Source of the DNA: an uncultured Hyphomicrobiales bacterium
GTDB taxonomy: Bacteria; Pseudomonadota; Alphaproteobacteria; Rhizobiales; Xanthobacteraceae
Assembly: GCA_903878085.1 (NCBI GenBank)
Contig: CAIRGJ010000046.1
Location: 62,001-126,000, forward strand
Length of the DNA stretch: 64,000 bases
Direction: 5' to 3'
Part shown: piece by piece, positions 5,782-14,466 of the stretch
Numbering within the stretch: the first letter of the stretch is position 1
How the letters are laid out: each line of letters starts with the position of its first letter
Position numbers and translations under genes: made by a program
Notes under the pieces: generated by a model
The model's input: only the letters and a program-made list of their open reading frames with translations
The model's database searches: none
Told to the model about the DNA's origin: nothing

Positions 5782-6180
5782 CTAAAATCTAATGCAACGA
5801 GCTTTGCAAGTGATCTCGGCACCAGGGGTGCAAGTACCGCCAGTCATAGCTGAAACCAAGTATAAATTGGTTCGTCCATTCTCTGTCCCCTCCTCGATCT
5901 TGCAGACGTTCCAACCCTTATTGTTGCCCTCGCGAACGGAAACATCCGTGAGTGTACAAAAAGTCTTTTTCGTCTCGCCGAGGATTACTGGTCGATAGAT
6001 ACTGCATGAGCCTCCAATCTCAAACGGCGCCATATTAGTTAGTTGAGAAATTGAAATGCCGCCCAATAAGCGAATTATCCCTCCATCGCTGAAGAAATTT
6101 CCGCCCCATGCAATTGCGGCGGCTCCCACCGCACCGATTACGCCAGCGATGGCCCGTTTCGCCAAATCTGTGAAATCCAA
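5782..6180 (-). CDS. hypothetical membrane-anchored cysteine-rich protein
   Basis: A 132-residue protein. An N-terminal helix (AIAGVIGAVGAAAIAWGGNFF) is a membrane anchor or uncleaved signal. The remainder contains about seven cysteines (GSCSIYR, TFCTLTD, WNVCKIE, GTCTPG, ITCKARCIRF), consistent with an extracytoplasmic disulfide-bonded domain. Base composition is AT-richer than the core genes. It converges with the HEPN-like gene across a repeat. I recognise no family. Confidence 0.6.
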   Translation of the reverse strand: MDFTDLAKRAIAGVIGAVGAAAIAWGGNFFSDGGIIRLLGGISISQLTNMAPFEIGGSCSIYRPVILGETKKTFCTLTDVSVREGNNKGWNVCKIEEGTENGRTNLYLVSAMTGGTCTPGAEITCKARCIRF

Positions 6181-6279
6181 AGCTGCCCCCTATGCTTCTA
6201 CCGAAGACACGAGAGTACTCCGATAGAAATGCAACCTCAAGTCGCGTCAACTTGCTGTCAGTATCAGCGCCGCCCCTCA

Positions 6280-7041
6280 TTACCCCGCCCGCATCCCCTT
6301 CGCCTTGATCTTCTCCATCGCCGCCGGGGTGCGCAGATAATCGATGAAGGCCTTGGCGCCGGCCGCTTCCTTGGCGTTCGCGGCCACCGCCGCAGTGAAC
6401 ACCAGATCCTGCTGCAGGTCGCCGGGGAAGCTGCCTACGAGGTCGACGCCGGGCGCGGTCAGTACGTTGGTGAGAAACACGCCGAGCTCGGCGTCGTCTG
6501 TGGCGACCGCCTGCGCGATGCCCGCGGGCGTCGTCTGCACCACGGCCTTGGCTTTCATCGCCTCGGCGATGCCGAGGCGCTCGAACACCTTGGTGACATA
6601 GGCGCCGGCCGCGCTCGCCGGCAGCAGCGCCACGGACTTGGCGTTGAGCAGTGCGGCTTTGAGCGCCTCGGGCGTTGCGACGTCTGGCTTGGCCGCGCCG
6701 GCCTTGACCGCGACGCCGAAACCGACGCGGGCGATATCGACGCTCGGCCCGGGCGCGAAGGCGGCGCGGGCGGCGGCGTTTTGCATTACATCCACCGGCA
6801 CGACGCCGAGATCGAATGGCGCTGAGGTGGCCGCCTTGATCAGATTGGGCGTGGAATCGAATTGGATCGTGAGCTTGTGGCCGGTGTCGCGCTCGAATTG
6901 CGCGCCGAGTTCGTTCAACATGCCGGTGATGGAGCCGCCGGCCAGCACCTTCAGCTCGGCGGCCCGCGCGCCCGGCGCGAAGGCCAGCGCCCAGCCAAGC
7001 GTCAAGCCGAGGATCGAAGCGGCCGCGGTGAGCGTTGTCAT
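6280..7041 (-). CDS. periplasmic molybdate-type substrate-binding protein
   Basis: A 253-residue solute-binding protein of the PBP type 2 / ModA-like superfamily. A signal peptide (MTTLTAAASILGLTLGWALAFAPGARA) is followed by ELKVLAGGSITGMLNELGAQFERDTGHKLTIQF, typical of the first domain; LGVFLTNVL and FIDYLRTPAAMEKIKAKGM match the C-terminal lobe. The start at 7041 is chosen because ATG follows GGGGGAAAC and begins the signal peptide; the longer upstream frame is arginine-rich and not signal-like. No ABC permease or ATPase is adjacent, so it may be an orphan receptor or sensor. Ligand specificity is not readable. Confidence 0.85.
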   Translation of the reverse strand: MTTLTAAASILGLTLGWALAFAPGARAAELKVLAGGSITGMLNELGAQFERDTGHKLTIQFDSTPNLIKAATSAPFDLGVVPVDVMQNAAARAAFAPGPSVDIARVGFGVAVKAGAAKPDVATPEALKAALLNAKSVALLPASAAGAYVTKVFERLGIAEAMKAKAVVQTTPAGIAQAVATDDAELGVFLTNVLTAPGVDLVGSFPGDLQQDLVFTAAVAANAKEAAGAKAFIDYLRTPAAMEKIKAKGMRAG

Positions 7042-8689: not shown

Positions 8690-9618
8690 CTAGATCCTGG
8701 CGCCGCGATTGTAAGCGTCGACCAGTTGATTGTAGTCGCGCATCAGGCGCGGTGGCGAGCCTTCGACCATCCAGCCTGAGCCGGCGTTGCTGAGCATCAT
8801 CTTGTCGCCTGAACTGTACGGCACCTTGTCGCGGATGCGGCGCATGAGTTGCTTTGCCGTGGTCAGGAACGACTTGGCGTTGCTGATGAACATGCCGCCG
8901 ATCTTTTCGCCGCCACCGGTGCCCGAGAACGGCTCCGCCGCCTTGACGATGCTTTCGTAGTCGTTGATCGCGGCCGTGATCTCGGCGAGGTCGGATTTGC
9001 CTGAATCCTCCGCGCGCAGCACGCGCTTGGCCTGGATCATCAAGGCTTCGACCTGGTAGCGCGCGGTCTTGCCTTCGCTTTGCTCGATGGCGGCGAGTTT
9101 CTCCAGCGCGCGTCTGTCGTTGATGGCTTCGACGCCGTCGCGCAGCTTCTGGTCGGCGCTCGCAAACGCGTCCCAGGCGGCGACGAGCATGGGGTGCAGG
9201 GCCTTGCCCTTGGCCATCTTGTCGTCCTTGTAGTTCTCCTGCGTGTAATAGTCGTCGGCCTCCTTGAGCAGCGGCTCGAGCTTGCCCACGGCGTCGGCGT
9301 AAGCCGAGGCGGCAGCCTCGAGCGCGGCGTCGCGCGGCTCCAGCGCGTTGGCCTTGTCGACGTTCTTCTTGCAGTCGGAGGTGTCGTAGATGGTGTAGGT
9401 GCCGTAGATGATGCGCTCCTTGCCGGTCGGCCCGCCCGGCGCGGCCCAACTGAAATAGCGCGAGCGCGACTGGTAGCTGCGTTCCGACAGCCGGTTGATG
9501 CACCGACATAGGCGTTGATTTTCTCGACGCCCGGCGGGGTTTGGGCGGAGGCCGGGTTGGGGGGGAGCGATGCGAGCAGAAAAGTTGCTCCGAGCACGGC
9601 TGCATAAAATGGCTTCAT
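8690..9618 (-). pseudogene. DUF3829 (YiiG-like) secreted protein, interrupted by a frameshift
   Basis: The gene reads MKPFYAAVLGATFLLASLPPNPASAQ (signal peptide) then TPPGVEKINAYVG in one frame; the rest (CINRLSERSYQSRSRYFSW, GPTGKERIIYGTYTIYDTSDC, to the end NRGARI) is in the next frame. Adding one base between VG and CINRLSER near 9501-9504 restores a single frame of about 309 residues matching DUF3829 proteins. ATG at 9618 has a GAGGTG ribosome site. It may be a real single-base deletion or a base-call error. The downstream frame is otherwise undamaged, which favours a recent event or an error. Confidence 0.75.
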
Positions 9619-9639
9619 ATTCACACCTCAAATTTCAAG

Positions 9640-10411
9640 TGCGGCGCGCAGCACATTATCTTACCCGTCACGGCGCCGGGAGATTATTTGGCGAAAGCCG
9701 GCGCAAGGTTCACGCAGGCAAGCGTCATCGCCCGTATTCTTTGTGCGGCCCCGGGCAGGCCGTCGTCTTGTCTCTCATTCTTTGCGCCCCGAAAGACGAA
9801 GGCGCGCGGAACGCCGGGGCCACGACGACCCCGCAGCCTCGTGAGATGGTTGAGTTTGTTCTCACGAGCATAGTCACCACGAAGTTGCCGGTTCCCCGGC
9901 GCTCCGCGCGCGGTGTTTATAGGTTTGCTCCGCATCGTCCCCGGTGGTCGTCCGTTCGTCACGTTTAAACCCATTTCAGGGCCCGTGACTCTCCACCGTT
10001 TCAGCCCCTGGCAACTCGGCCTTGCGTCCACTGACAAGGACGCGTTTGGCCTACCGGCCGGTCAGAGGGCCTCGGCGCGCGTCAAGGCGGCCAGGACCGA
10101 TGCGGCTTGGACCGCTGACGGGGTCGTTGCGTCGCATCTCCGACGCCCCCGCCAGCCACCGCTCCCCGCCCAACGTCTAATGACGCTGATCAAACGCCCC
10201 TCGTAGATGGGCGGGATGCTGGATATATATCCTAGGTATATAGGCCCGTCAACGGGGTGGTAGGATTATTTTTCGGGGGGTGGGCGGAGAGGGCGGGTTT
10301 ATTAGCCGCGATATTTGCCCGATTACGCTATCGCTCCATCCGGGCTGCCCGTACTACGGGCTACACTGCGGCAACGCTCGGCGAGCTACTCGGGCTTACA
10401 TGGAGGAGTTG
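9640..10411. other. gene-poor, hairpin-rich stretch with no supported protein gene
   Basis: About 770 bases without a convincing coding region: open frames on both strands are arginine/proline-rich and lack ribosome sites. The part from about 9930 to 10260 contains several strong inverted repeats, for example GCGTCC...GGACGC near 10024-10043 and GGGGTCG...CGACGCCCC near 10119-10148, with an AT-rich palindromic stretch TATATATCCTAGGTATATA near 10222-10241. The last 110 bases are a degenerate repeat. It could be a mobile-element scar or encode a structured RNA; I see no match to RNase P, tmRNA, SRP or 6S RNA. Confidence 0.5.
10296..10400. repeat. degenerate intergenic repeat (GATTACGC / CGGGCT family)
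   Basis: Contains GATTACGCTATCGCTCCATC, then CGGGCTGCCCGTACTACGGG and CTACTCGGGCTT, the pattern of dispersed Rhizobiales repeats. It lies directly before the accessory membrane-protein gene at 10412. Comparable motifs recur at 12240-12345. Confidence 0.5.
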
Positions 10412-10804
10412 ATGACGTTCGAAATTATTGTCGCCCTTATCGGTCTAGCAATTGCGATTGCTCAGGTCGTTGGCGAACAGGGTGAAAAGCGACGCAGAAC
10501 CGCAAAGGTCGGAATATTTGTCGCTGCCGCTCTGCTCGTCGCGTTGGGAGGCTACGAGTTTTTCAAGGTTGTTTATCACCAGTCCGAACTTCAGCAGATT
10601 GCAAACAAGGTGAACGGTGTGCTCGACCATCCGAAAACATTCGATGACGTTTACGAAGCAATGAATTTTCCTGACTTCAACAAGCTAAATGAAGCTATCG
10701 ATTGGATGTACGACCGAACGATTGTCAAGTACGATGTGCATCATGGTGTAGACGTCGCAGGCAAACCGCATTCGATTCGCCTACTAGTTAGGACTGGACC
10801 TTAG
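10412..10804 (+). CDS. hypothetical membrane protein of the accessory island
   Basis: A 130-residue protein with two membrane segments (about residues 4-20 and 33-50) followed by a soluble C-terminal domain with DVYEAMNFPDFNKLNEAIDWMYDRTIVKYDVH. The start at 10412 is decided by a strong GGAGGAG ribosome site five bases upstream; the longer open frame covers a repeat. GC content is lower than in the flanking core genes. It lies tail to tail with the minus-strand nucleotidyltransferase operon, about 80 bases away. No family is recognised. Confidence 0.6.
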   Translation: MTFEIIVALIGLAIAIAQVVGEQGEKRRRTAKVGIFVAAALLVALGGYEFFKVVYHQSELQQIANKVNGVLDHPKTFDDVYEAMNFPDFNKLNEAIDWMYDRTIVKYDVHHGVDVAGKPHSIRLLVRTGP

Positions 10805-10883
10805 CGGCGCAGGGATTTTCTCATTAGACACATCAGTGATAAAAAATAGCGGATTACGCTTGATAATCTGTTTTACCGACAAA

Positions 10884-11186
10884 CTACGAAATACGATTCG
10901 TCTTTTCGTAGAGCGGAACGAGATGGTCGCTTTCGTTCAAGGGGTTTCTTGCTGCTTCGCCGGCAGTTAACGCGGTTACGTCAACTTTTACGCCCAGCTT
11001 TTTTTTGAGACAATCAACTATTTTGAGGAACGCAATGTATTCATCAAATGCTTCCGAACTGTTTTTTTCAAAAACGACTAGCAGATCGATGTCGTTGTAT
11101 TGATTGGATCTGAAGGCTGAACCGAAGCCATGCGCTGACCTTATTTCATGCAGCTTTATAGCAATATTGCGGATTTCCCTTGTCAT
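10884..11186 (-). CDS. minimal nucleotidyltransferase (MNT-type)
   Basis: A 100-residue nucleotidyltransferase-fold protein. Residues 20-34 read GFGSAFRSNQYNDID, giving the G-S...D-x-D signature (G22, S23, D32, D34), and a third acidic residue sits in KVDVTAL (D69), the pattern of metal-binding catalytic sites in the polymerase-beta superfamily. Length fits antitoxin-like MNT proteins that modify a HEPN partner. The start is uncertain: ATG at 11186 gives a standard N-terminus and overlaps the upstream gene by 41 bases; ATG at 11267 is in frame but overlaps by 122. Third gene of a minus-strand operon behind the HNH gene. Confidence 0.72.
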   Translation of the reverse strand: MTREIRNIAIKLHEIRSAHGFGSAFRSNQYNDIDLLVVFEKNSSEAFDEYIAFLKIVDCLKKKLGVKVDVTALTAGEAARNPLNESDHLVPLYEKTNRIS

Positions 11187-11556
11187 CCGTTCGATAAAAG
11201 CTCCAGTAGTCTGCCTGCTGCAAAGCGCCGTTAATCTCGGTGGAGTTGAACAATCCGATTTTTGCATTGATACAATACTCTTTCGCTTCGGGCGTGTATC
11301 CGCTCCAATTGCCGCCGCAATAAATGATATTCAACGGAGAAAAACCAGTCAGCGCGCGTTGGACGACGAGTATCCCAAGGGAGTATTCGTCGCAGCATAT
11401 CAAACGCAAGCGATCGTCTGGCGAGCGGCGTTCAATCTCAAACACGATATCATCGTGCCGCGACGCGGATTTTACGTTGCTGTGATTGCGGATGACCTGA
11501 TCCAGCCATGAAATTCTGCTAAACGAGACTCCCCAGTTATTCGAGCCATTACTCAT
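11146..11556 (-). CDS. hypothetical protein of the HNH-nucleotidyltransferase operon
   Basis: A 136-residue soluble protein. Its start codon overlaps the HNH stop in ATGA, so translation is probably coupled. Visible features are an acidic strand region (HDDIVFEIERR), a hydrophobic strand (LGILVVQRAL), and a segment NIIYCGGNWSGYTPEAKEYCINAKIGLFNSTEINGAL whose strand-helix order recalls the last part of restriction-endonuclease-like folds. No complete catalytic D...E-x-K is evident. Function is unknown; context suggests it acts with the nuclease and the nucleotidyltransferase. Confidence 0.6.
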   Translation of the reverse strand: MSNGSNNWGVSFSRISWLDQVIRNHSNVKSASRHDDIVFEIERRSPDDRLRLICCDEYSLGILVVQRALTGFSPLNIIYCGGNWSGYTPEAKEYCINAKIGLFNSTEINGALQQADYWSFYRTDDKGNPQYCYKAA

Positions 11557-12221
11557 CCCTTGAATTCCTTTTCGAAATCCGCTGGAAATAGAGGATAATT
11601 GTCTAGCCGATGATATTGATTTCGCTCAAACGCTGCGGCGTGAGCTTTAAATTTTGCATACAGCTTATACTGTTCAGACGTCAGCAGACTCTCATTCGCT
11701 TCGATCATGTTCATGATACGAATATTATTGGGAACGATAGTGTCGATCTTTTTTAAGCGCCACACCGTTTCAAGATTTGAGTTCGGGTCGTCTTTAGCTG
11801 CTTGTGGCTCCGGTCCGAAGTCCGCCCAAATTTGATGGTTTTGAATGAGCAACTTGCCGACTGCTGATTTCAAATCACCGATATTACCGAAGGCTTGTGC
11901 TCGGCCCAGCGTGCGCACCTCGGCCTCCCAGGCGGACTTCCATTCTCGAAGCTTTTCAGTCGGGTAATCTGCCGGAGCTTTGTCAACTTTGGAATGGCAG
12001 GTCGGACACAGCAGGACCAAGTTTCCGTAAGAGTTATCACCGCCCTTTCCGTCGCCCCGCGGGCCGGATGGTTGTCGAGCGATAACGTGCGCCATTTCCC
12101 CGAAGTTTACTGTCCCAGAGTGTTCCAACACAGTCGTTCATTCTTCTCGGCAACTAGGATTTGAGCAAATCCCGGCCGCTCGACCCCACAGAAGCTTTAA
12201 GTCCTTCTCAGGAATACTCAT
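11553..12221 (-). pseudogene. HNH endonuclease interrupted by an in-frame TGA
   Basis: From ATG at 12221 the frame reads MSIPEKDLKLLWGRAAGICS, then NPSCREE and a TGA (12138-12140), then continues unbroken for 194 residues to 11553: TTVLEHSGTVNFGEMAH, DNSYGNLVLLCPTCH. Across the stop this is a normal HNH treble-clef nuclease: C19 and C24 pair with C72 and C75, with H45, N67 and H76 as the H-N-H residues. The part downstream of the stop alone lacks the first zinc pair, and its GTG at 12131 has no ribosome site. A nonsense mutation or base error is most likely. First gene of a three-gene operon. Confidence 0.78.
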
Positions 12222-12239
12222 TCAGATATCCGTGCGCCA

Positions 12240-12345
12240 GAATAGCGAAGCGTAATCCGCTGTTCGTGTAAAGAAAAGGCGGGTTACGCCTTCCGCCTTC
12301 GCTCTTCGAGCTACGGCGGACAGGTCGGCTAACCCGCCCTCTCAA
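12240..12345. repeat. degenerate intergenic repeat with GGCGGGTTACGCC ... GGCTAACCCGCC arms
   Basis: Contains GCGAAGCGTAATCCGC, GGCGGGTTACGCCTTCCGCC and GCTAACCCGCC, which can pair as a long imperfect hairpin. It lies between the HNH gene start and the thiC stop and marks the right edge of the accessory cluster. Confidence 0.55.
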
Positions 12346-12362
12346 TTGCGATAAAACGTAGT

Positions 12363-14466
<2,104 letters not shown>

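Follow-up and report, generated by a model that had tools for sequence, protein, structure and literature searches.

A sparse and mobile three-gene module of HNH nuclease, predicted restriction-endonuclease-like protein and minimal nucleotidyltransferase: a candidate anti-phage system

A window of 64,000 nucleotides from an uncultured Hyphomicrobiales bacterium of the Xanthobacteraceae (assembly GCA_903878085.1, contig CAIRGJ010000046.1, positions 62,001 to 126,000; the whole of the DNA analysed here) contains three minus-strand genes for an HNH nuclease, a middle protein that we call X, and a minimal nucleotidyltransferase (NTase). They are placed between a gene that we take from its sequence to be thiC and a small plus-strand open reading frame (ORF). 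The same three genes form a module that is sparse and mobile, being found in both Alpha- and Gammaproteobacteria, on plasmids and in prophages. A conserved operon, its domain content, the correlated divergence of its proteins and its defence surroundings are what has been observed. We consider the chances about even that this is a mobile anti-phage module comprised of an HNH DNase effector, a dead restriction-endonuclease fold in X and an NTase for control, and that the window copy was gained and then broken.

A genome scan with X located the trio in a Brevundimonas metagenome-assembled genome (locus L004), where the three genes are arranged as in the window and the HNH frame, of 222 codons, is intact. 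Plasmid, genome and viral-contig searches added further loci, and the six frames of all loci collected were then scanned with profiles made from the earliest members. In this search the HNH matches split into two groups, one of 187–342 bits and one of 110 bits or less, and family membership was set at 187 bits or more. The order HNH-X-NTase, on one strand, is present in 22/22 of the collected family loci with sequence 3' of the HNH gene (the window, L004, L006–L011, L014, L015, L017–L020, L022, L024, L025 and L028–L032, of which L032 is 5'-truncated and was retained). Three other family members, L023, L026 and L027, end at a contig edge and stand outside the 22; L026 and L027 agree across the HNH stretch they share. 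A preliminary description of the locus, made from the window sequence alone, had suggested looking for the gene order in other genomes, and its presence in every testable locus indicates no chance arrangement. The count is biased, because many loci were found via X. In a scan of viral contigs with an HNH-only alignment, 10 of the 16 loci among the matches listed belong to the group of 187 bits or more. Three of these 10 listed loci end directly behind the HNH gene and the remaining 7/7 have both X and NTase. The 6 lower-scoring loci among the matches listed are 5 without X and 1 (L033) that ends directly behind HNH. Eight HNH rows of 110 bits or less were dropped (L012, L013 and L033–L038): seven cover profile positions 1–168 at most and have no X by profile, and L033 covers positions 4–200 in a protein of 337 aa. 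HNH matches were present in 173 plasmid records, and 10 plasmid regions were taken (L006–L015), 2 of them via the X search.

Across 21 loci the pairwise distances of HNH, X and NTase are strongly correlated (r 0.87, 0.72 and 0.79; p 1e-4), with L008 excluded for its frameshifted NTase and the window HNH represented only by the piece after its stop. This is expected if the unit is transferred and evolves as one. The NTase of L008, from Rhizobium, lies in two frames (6316–6599), and that of L011, from Acinetobacter, is short (6064–6276) and near IS66 genes; loss of the NTase may be tolerated or recent, as in these two loci. The PLSDB gene table, itself incomplete, has a partial NTase frame for L006 (6032–6310) and none for L007 (6093–6437) or L014 (4537–4926). 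Among 8 annotated plasmid copies, every X is labelled 'hypothetical protein' and only 3 of the NTases carry the name nucleotidyltransferase, and because of such annotation the unit is easily overlooked.

By both profile and structural comparison the HNH domain is Cap5-type. Against PADLOC, the window HNH matches PDC-M68A (1.6e-24) and HNH-SAVED effectors with its N-terminal part only; matches to the HNH-SAVED profiles, which are 368–530 long, end near residue 105–146 of 222. In place of SAVED there is a C-terminus of 110 aa that is predicted to be all helical. Two HNH proteins scanned with Pfam had no match to a HEPN profile, and structural comparison gave no informative match for the helical domain, a result with which a HEPN fold there would be compatible. 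The first Cys pair, C19/C24, is kept in 19/19 rows with letters there.

The middle protein had been left unrecognised in the preliminary description. For sequence families this still stands, as X has no match above cut-off among the curated families (Pfam for 14/22 X proteins, NCBIfam for 4/22), the housekeeping families that had been proposed as something to look for included. Likewise, seven X proteins scanned had no match to PADLOC models and X profile searches against PDB sequences gave nothing significant. As for structure, prediction gives a restriction-endonuclease-like domain. The predicted structure (pLDDT 88.9) has the DSSP order H E E E H E H E H. The PD-(D/E)XK core has the order alpha-beta-beta-beta-alpha-beta, and the X model contains this order of elements. 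The Foldseek list for X also has RNase H-fold integrase chains, with worse E-values. A restriction-endonuclease-like fold for X, as modelled, has moderate support.

Might X itself cut DNA through an atypical active site, making the locus a two-nuclease restriction system? The fold would allow it, as would an Asp that begins strand 2 in 16/22 X proteins. However, in a register inferred from sequence and topology, not from superposition, the catalytic (D/E)xK is absent: the presumed Lys position is Tyr in 22/22, and two residues earlier D/E is present in 10/22. We regard an active X as highly improbable. The Tyr (Tyr58 in the window) is the sole invariant residue of X.

That the third gene is of the minimal nucleotidyltransferase (MNT) type, with a GS...DxD...D signature, had been proposed from the window alone and is borne out by its Pfam match and motif (Table 1). 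All 22 NTases contain GSX7-9DXD. The NTase profile matches minimal NTases, among them MntA (5yep) at E 0.0098; the MntA family scores 19.2 and 17.0 bits in two of three NTases scanned, with no match in the third, and its cut-off is 60. At the third metal-ligand position, 10 of 21 NTases have Asp or Glu, 10 have His and one has Ser, which is an unusual split for one orthologue set. It is the His-type NTases that the model accommodates least easily: either His may replace the metal ligand or catalysis may not always be needed.

Could the NTase make a nucleotide signal that is sensed by X or by the HNH C-terminal domain, as in a reduced version of the cyclic oligonucleotide-based anti-phage signaling system (CBASS)? 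The Cap5-type HNH domain is shared with such systems. The NTase, however, is about 100 aa with a profile that fits minimal NTases, and 4/22 NTases scanned with PADLOC gave no CD-NTase profile match. In addition, the best fold prediction for X is restriction-endonuclease-like, and the HNH protein, of 222 aa with a helical C-terminus, is too short for SAVED. A CBASS-like signal is quite unlikely.

In the anti-phage model that we prefer, the HNH protein would be the effector, a Cap5-type DNase with a helical domain in SAVED's place. X would be a catalytically dead restriction-endonuclease fold that binds and reports as an adaptor or sensor. The small NTase would exert control, most likely by nucleotidylation (AMPylation) of X or of the HNH protein, and this modification would keep the DNase silent until infection. 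We infer the defence role, the HNH protein as the toxic part, the dead state of X, the NTase target and the gating. In the boldest testable form of the model the NTase would put AMP on the invariant Tyr of X, and the nucleotidylated pseudo-nuclease would gate the HNH DNase, a covalent switch replacing a cyclic-nucleotide messenger. Modification of X is put forward because MntA is described as AMPylating a Tyr of its partner nuclease (PMC7641770) and X has a single invariant residue, also a Tyr. In this specific form the model is improbable.

What suggests a role in defence is the location of the module. At least two copies (L022 and L030), and probably three with L026, are in P2-like prophages at the gpA-portal position, as annotated with PHROGs; in L026 the portal gene adjoins HNH, with one side only visible. 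This position is described as a hotspot of anti-phage systems in PMC9122126 and PMC9519451. The module is followed by full-length Drt3a and Drt3b of the defence-associated reverse transcriptase system DRT3 in L007, preceded by full-length Shedu SduA in L009, and in L023 full-length Hachiman HamB is found before HNH. A Fic gene and a kinase-domain gene are upstream of the module in L080, a larger stretch around L017. In L083, a larger stretch around L020, a TIR-domain gene overlaps the HNH start (L083:5000-6358), which suggests a four-gene version with a second effector. In L022, L024 and L029 the scanned proteins adjoining the module gave no match. Together, the defence neighbours are suggestive of a defence role. 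The preliminary description had called the locus a small mobile nuclease/NTase locus, possibly defensive and of an undescribed type, and the recurrent gene order, the hotspot and the defence neighbours agree with it.

A toxin-antitoxin or plasmid/prophage maintenance system without an anti-phage role, in which the HNH protein is the toxin and X and NTase the antitoxin, would explain the small overlapping genes, the MNT-like partner and the occurrence on plasmids. The P2 gpA-portal hotspot and the Hachiman, Shedu and DRT3 neighbours speak against this, although they are compatible with toxin-antitoxin, and toxin-antitoxin systems can act as defence systems according to PMC9519451. We judge pure maintenance to be unlikely.

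Several observations weigh against the anti-phage model. The neighbour scan covered ten proteins picked by eye, 7/10 with a match, and is no measure of enrichment. No defence neighbour was recognised in the window, and several loci are on plasmids or by integrases without known defence genes. The distance correlation is partly due to the common ancestry of a co-moving unit. Foldseek returned no match for X at E 0.001 or better, the fold match being moderate. For the L004 NTase, Pfam and PADLOC scans gave nothing at E up to 1, and the GSX7-9DXD spacing differs from the GSX10DXD given for MntA in PMC7641770. Additionally, from the split at the third ligand, catalysis may not be universal among the NTases.

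The module is rare in the genomes searched. X is present in 1/43 genomes of the genus by single-protein search, this being the window's own, and by profile in 4/398 phylum genomes, own included. A class search with a long-X alignment gave two matches, of which L020 is real and L021 was rejected as a chance match to a CoA-binding protein; with the chance match removed, the long form is present in 1/385 class genomes. A search of genome contigs with the single X protein gave one locus, L004. Conjugative plasmids that carry the module are from Klebsiella, Rhizobium and Phaeobacter, a mobilizable one is from Acinetobacter, and plasmids typed as non-mobilizable are from Novosphingobium, Vibrio, Polymorphobacter and Ensifer. 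Viral contigs had no match to X with either the single protein or the long-X alignment, and the Klebsiella module DNA had no match among the E. coli genomes searched. HNH matches are present in three phage records, all covering <50% of the query. Two candidate relatives of X were discarded: L005, the sole match in 384 other class genomes (30% over 65 residues), was judged spurious from its frame and surroundings, and a phage-record match (E 0.09) is a sliding-clamp gene.

How did the module come to be in the window? The G+C of the three genes is 45–53%, against 61–69% left of 10250 and right of 12500 (500-base windows), so that the AT-richness noted in the preliminary description is confirmed; it is lowest, about 45–47%, in the middle of the cassette. 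In L004 the cassette is also at the thiC 3' end, in opposite orientation (L004:6683-8629). Among congeners the distance from the end of thiC to a conserved gene (about 8690-9547) is 686 to about 4050 bases, compared with about 2800 in the window, in a comparison where both ends could be placed in 5/11 stretches (L069–L079), and differing ORFs fill this flank. The thiC 3' flank (window 9547-12363) is a possible integration hotspot. That the cassette is AT-rich, lies at a variable site and is missing from the other 42 genomes of the genus indicates that the window copy was probably gained recently by horizontal transfer.

The locus itself is set out in Table 1. As the preliminary description had it, the genes overlap in an ATGA, which is formed by the HNH stop and the X start (11553-11556). 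The NTase start is 41 bases within X, and a longer NTase ORF from 11267 is also present. The HNH frame has a single premature stop, directly after the first Cys pair, and as had been claimed it is intact only if this TGA is read through. In addition, the window HNH has Trp at the position equivalent to L004 H99, which is His in 20/21 rows. The TGA and the Trp together point to a failing HNH gene, and on the sequence it is probably broken, the full-length protein having been lost since acquisition. Or, is the TGA a sequencing or assembly error and the copy intact? There is one stop only; elsewhere the three frames are uninterrupted, with nearly all conserved residues kept. Against an error, the Trp is a second departure in the same protein. 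An intact copy is doubtful, with some real chance of being correct.

Table 1. Features of the module and its flanks in the window
Feature	Position	Strand	Remarks
HNH nuclease gene, interrupted frame	11553..12221	-	223 codons counting both stops; predicted effector
In-frame TGA, HNH codon 28	12138..12140	-	sequence
Longest stop-free HNH ORF	11553..12131	-	192 aa, GTG start at 12131; without first Cys pair
X (middle gene)	11146..11556	-	predicted restriction-endonuclease-like domain without ExK motif; invariant Tyr58
Minimal nucleotidyltransferase (NTase), 100 aa	10884..11186	-	PF01909 (NTP_transf_2) E 2.9e-7; GSX8DID, third acidic residue Asp
Left arm, flanking 17-nt inverted repeat	10845..10861	+	repeat search
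Right arm, flanking 17-nt inverted repeat	12248..12264	-	repeat search
thiC (presumed), flanking gene outside module	12363..14348	-	3' flank variable within genus

Repeats around the set had been noted before, and a 17-nt inverted pair does frame the three genes, with a 14-nt core that is present at those 2 sites only in the 4.4-Mb assembly. Its sequence is not common to five other loci that were checked for spanning repeats: the L004 pair (13 nt at 92%) and the L022 pair (14 nt at 86%) are both unlike the window's, and in the other 3/5 no inverted pair spans the module. Terminal inverted repeats were not adopted as the defining end of a mobile element. The right flank (about 12240-12340) is similar (78%) to 105 bases at another place on the contig (L002). 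The AT-rich stretch also covers the plus-strand ORF at 10280-10804, which adjoins the cassette, is small and AT-rich, and contains a hydrophobic stretch. It has no Pfam family above cut-off, with a weak DUF202 match below cut-off, and may have arrived together with the cassette.

Compared with known systems, the module shares its Cap5-type HNH domain with Cap5 CBASS, but it is without SAVED, no CD-NTase was seen in the 4/22 NTases scanned, and it has the 110-aa helical C-terminus and a separate X gene. HepT/MntA, a type VII toxin-antitoxin, likewise couples a small MNT-fold NTase to a nuclease, and there is the weak MntA match of 19.2 bits. Unlike HepT/MntA, the nuclease of the module is HNH, with no HEPN domain recognised, there is the extra gene X, the motif is GSX7-9DXD, and the score is below the MntA cut-off of 60 bits. 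The PADLOC candidate PDC-M68 resembles the module in the N-terminal HNH part of PDC-M68A (1.6e-24), yet the match is confined to profile positions 4-118 of 253 (5-156 for the L004 HNH) and the seven X proteins scanned have no match to any PADLOC model. Non-catalytic restriction-endonuclease folds occur in the N-terminal part of Rpb5 and in Tk-TIP26; these differ from X in having other partners, and no sequence relation was found. HNH nucleases are used in defence by ZorE of Zorya, whose profile matches the window HNH at 8e-4, and PtuB of Septu is an HNH defence protein, but the module is without Zorya genes or an ATPase partner. No description of the HNH-X-NTase trio was found in the open-licence PMC literature. 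Judged by sequence, the module is not CBASS, not HepT/MntA and not a full PDC-M68A match, and the lack of a fit to these, with no description found, leads us to class it as a probable defence module that has a nuclease effector and a control pair of undescribed type. If this is true, about 1.3 kb would hold a whole defence system of DNase, pseudo-nuclease and MNT-like NTase, which would be very compact, and control of a Cap5-type HNH would do without SAVED. How control works can be tested directly through the invariant Tyr and the two types of NTase metal site.
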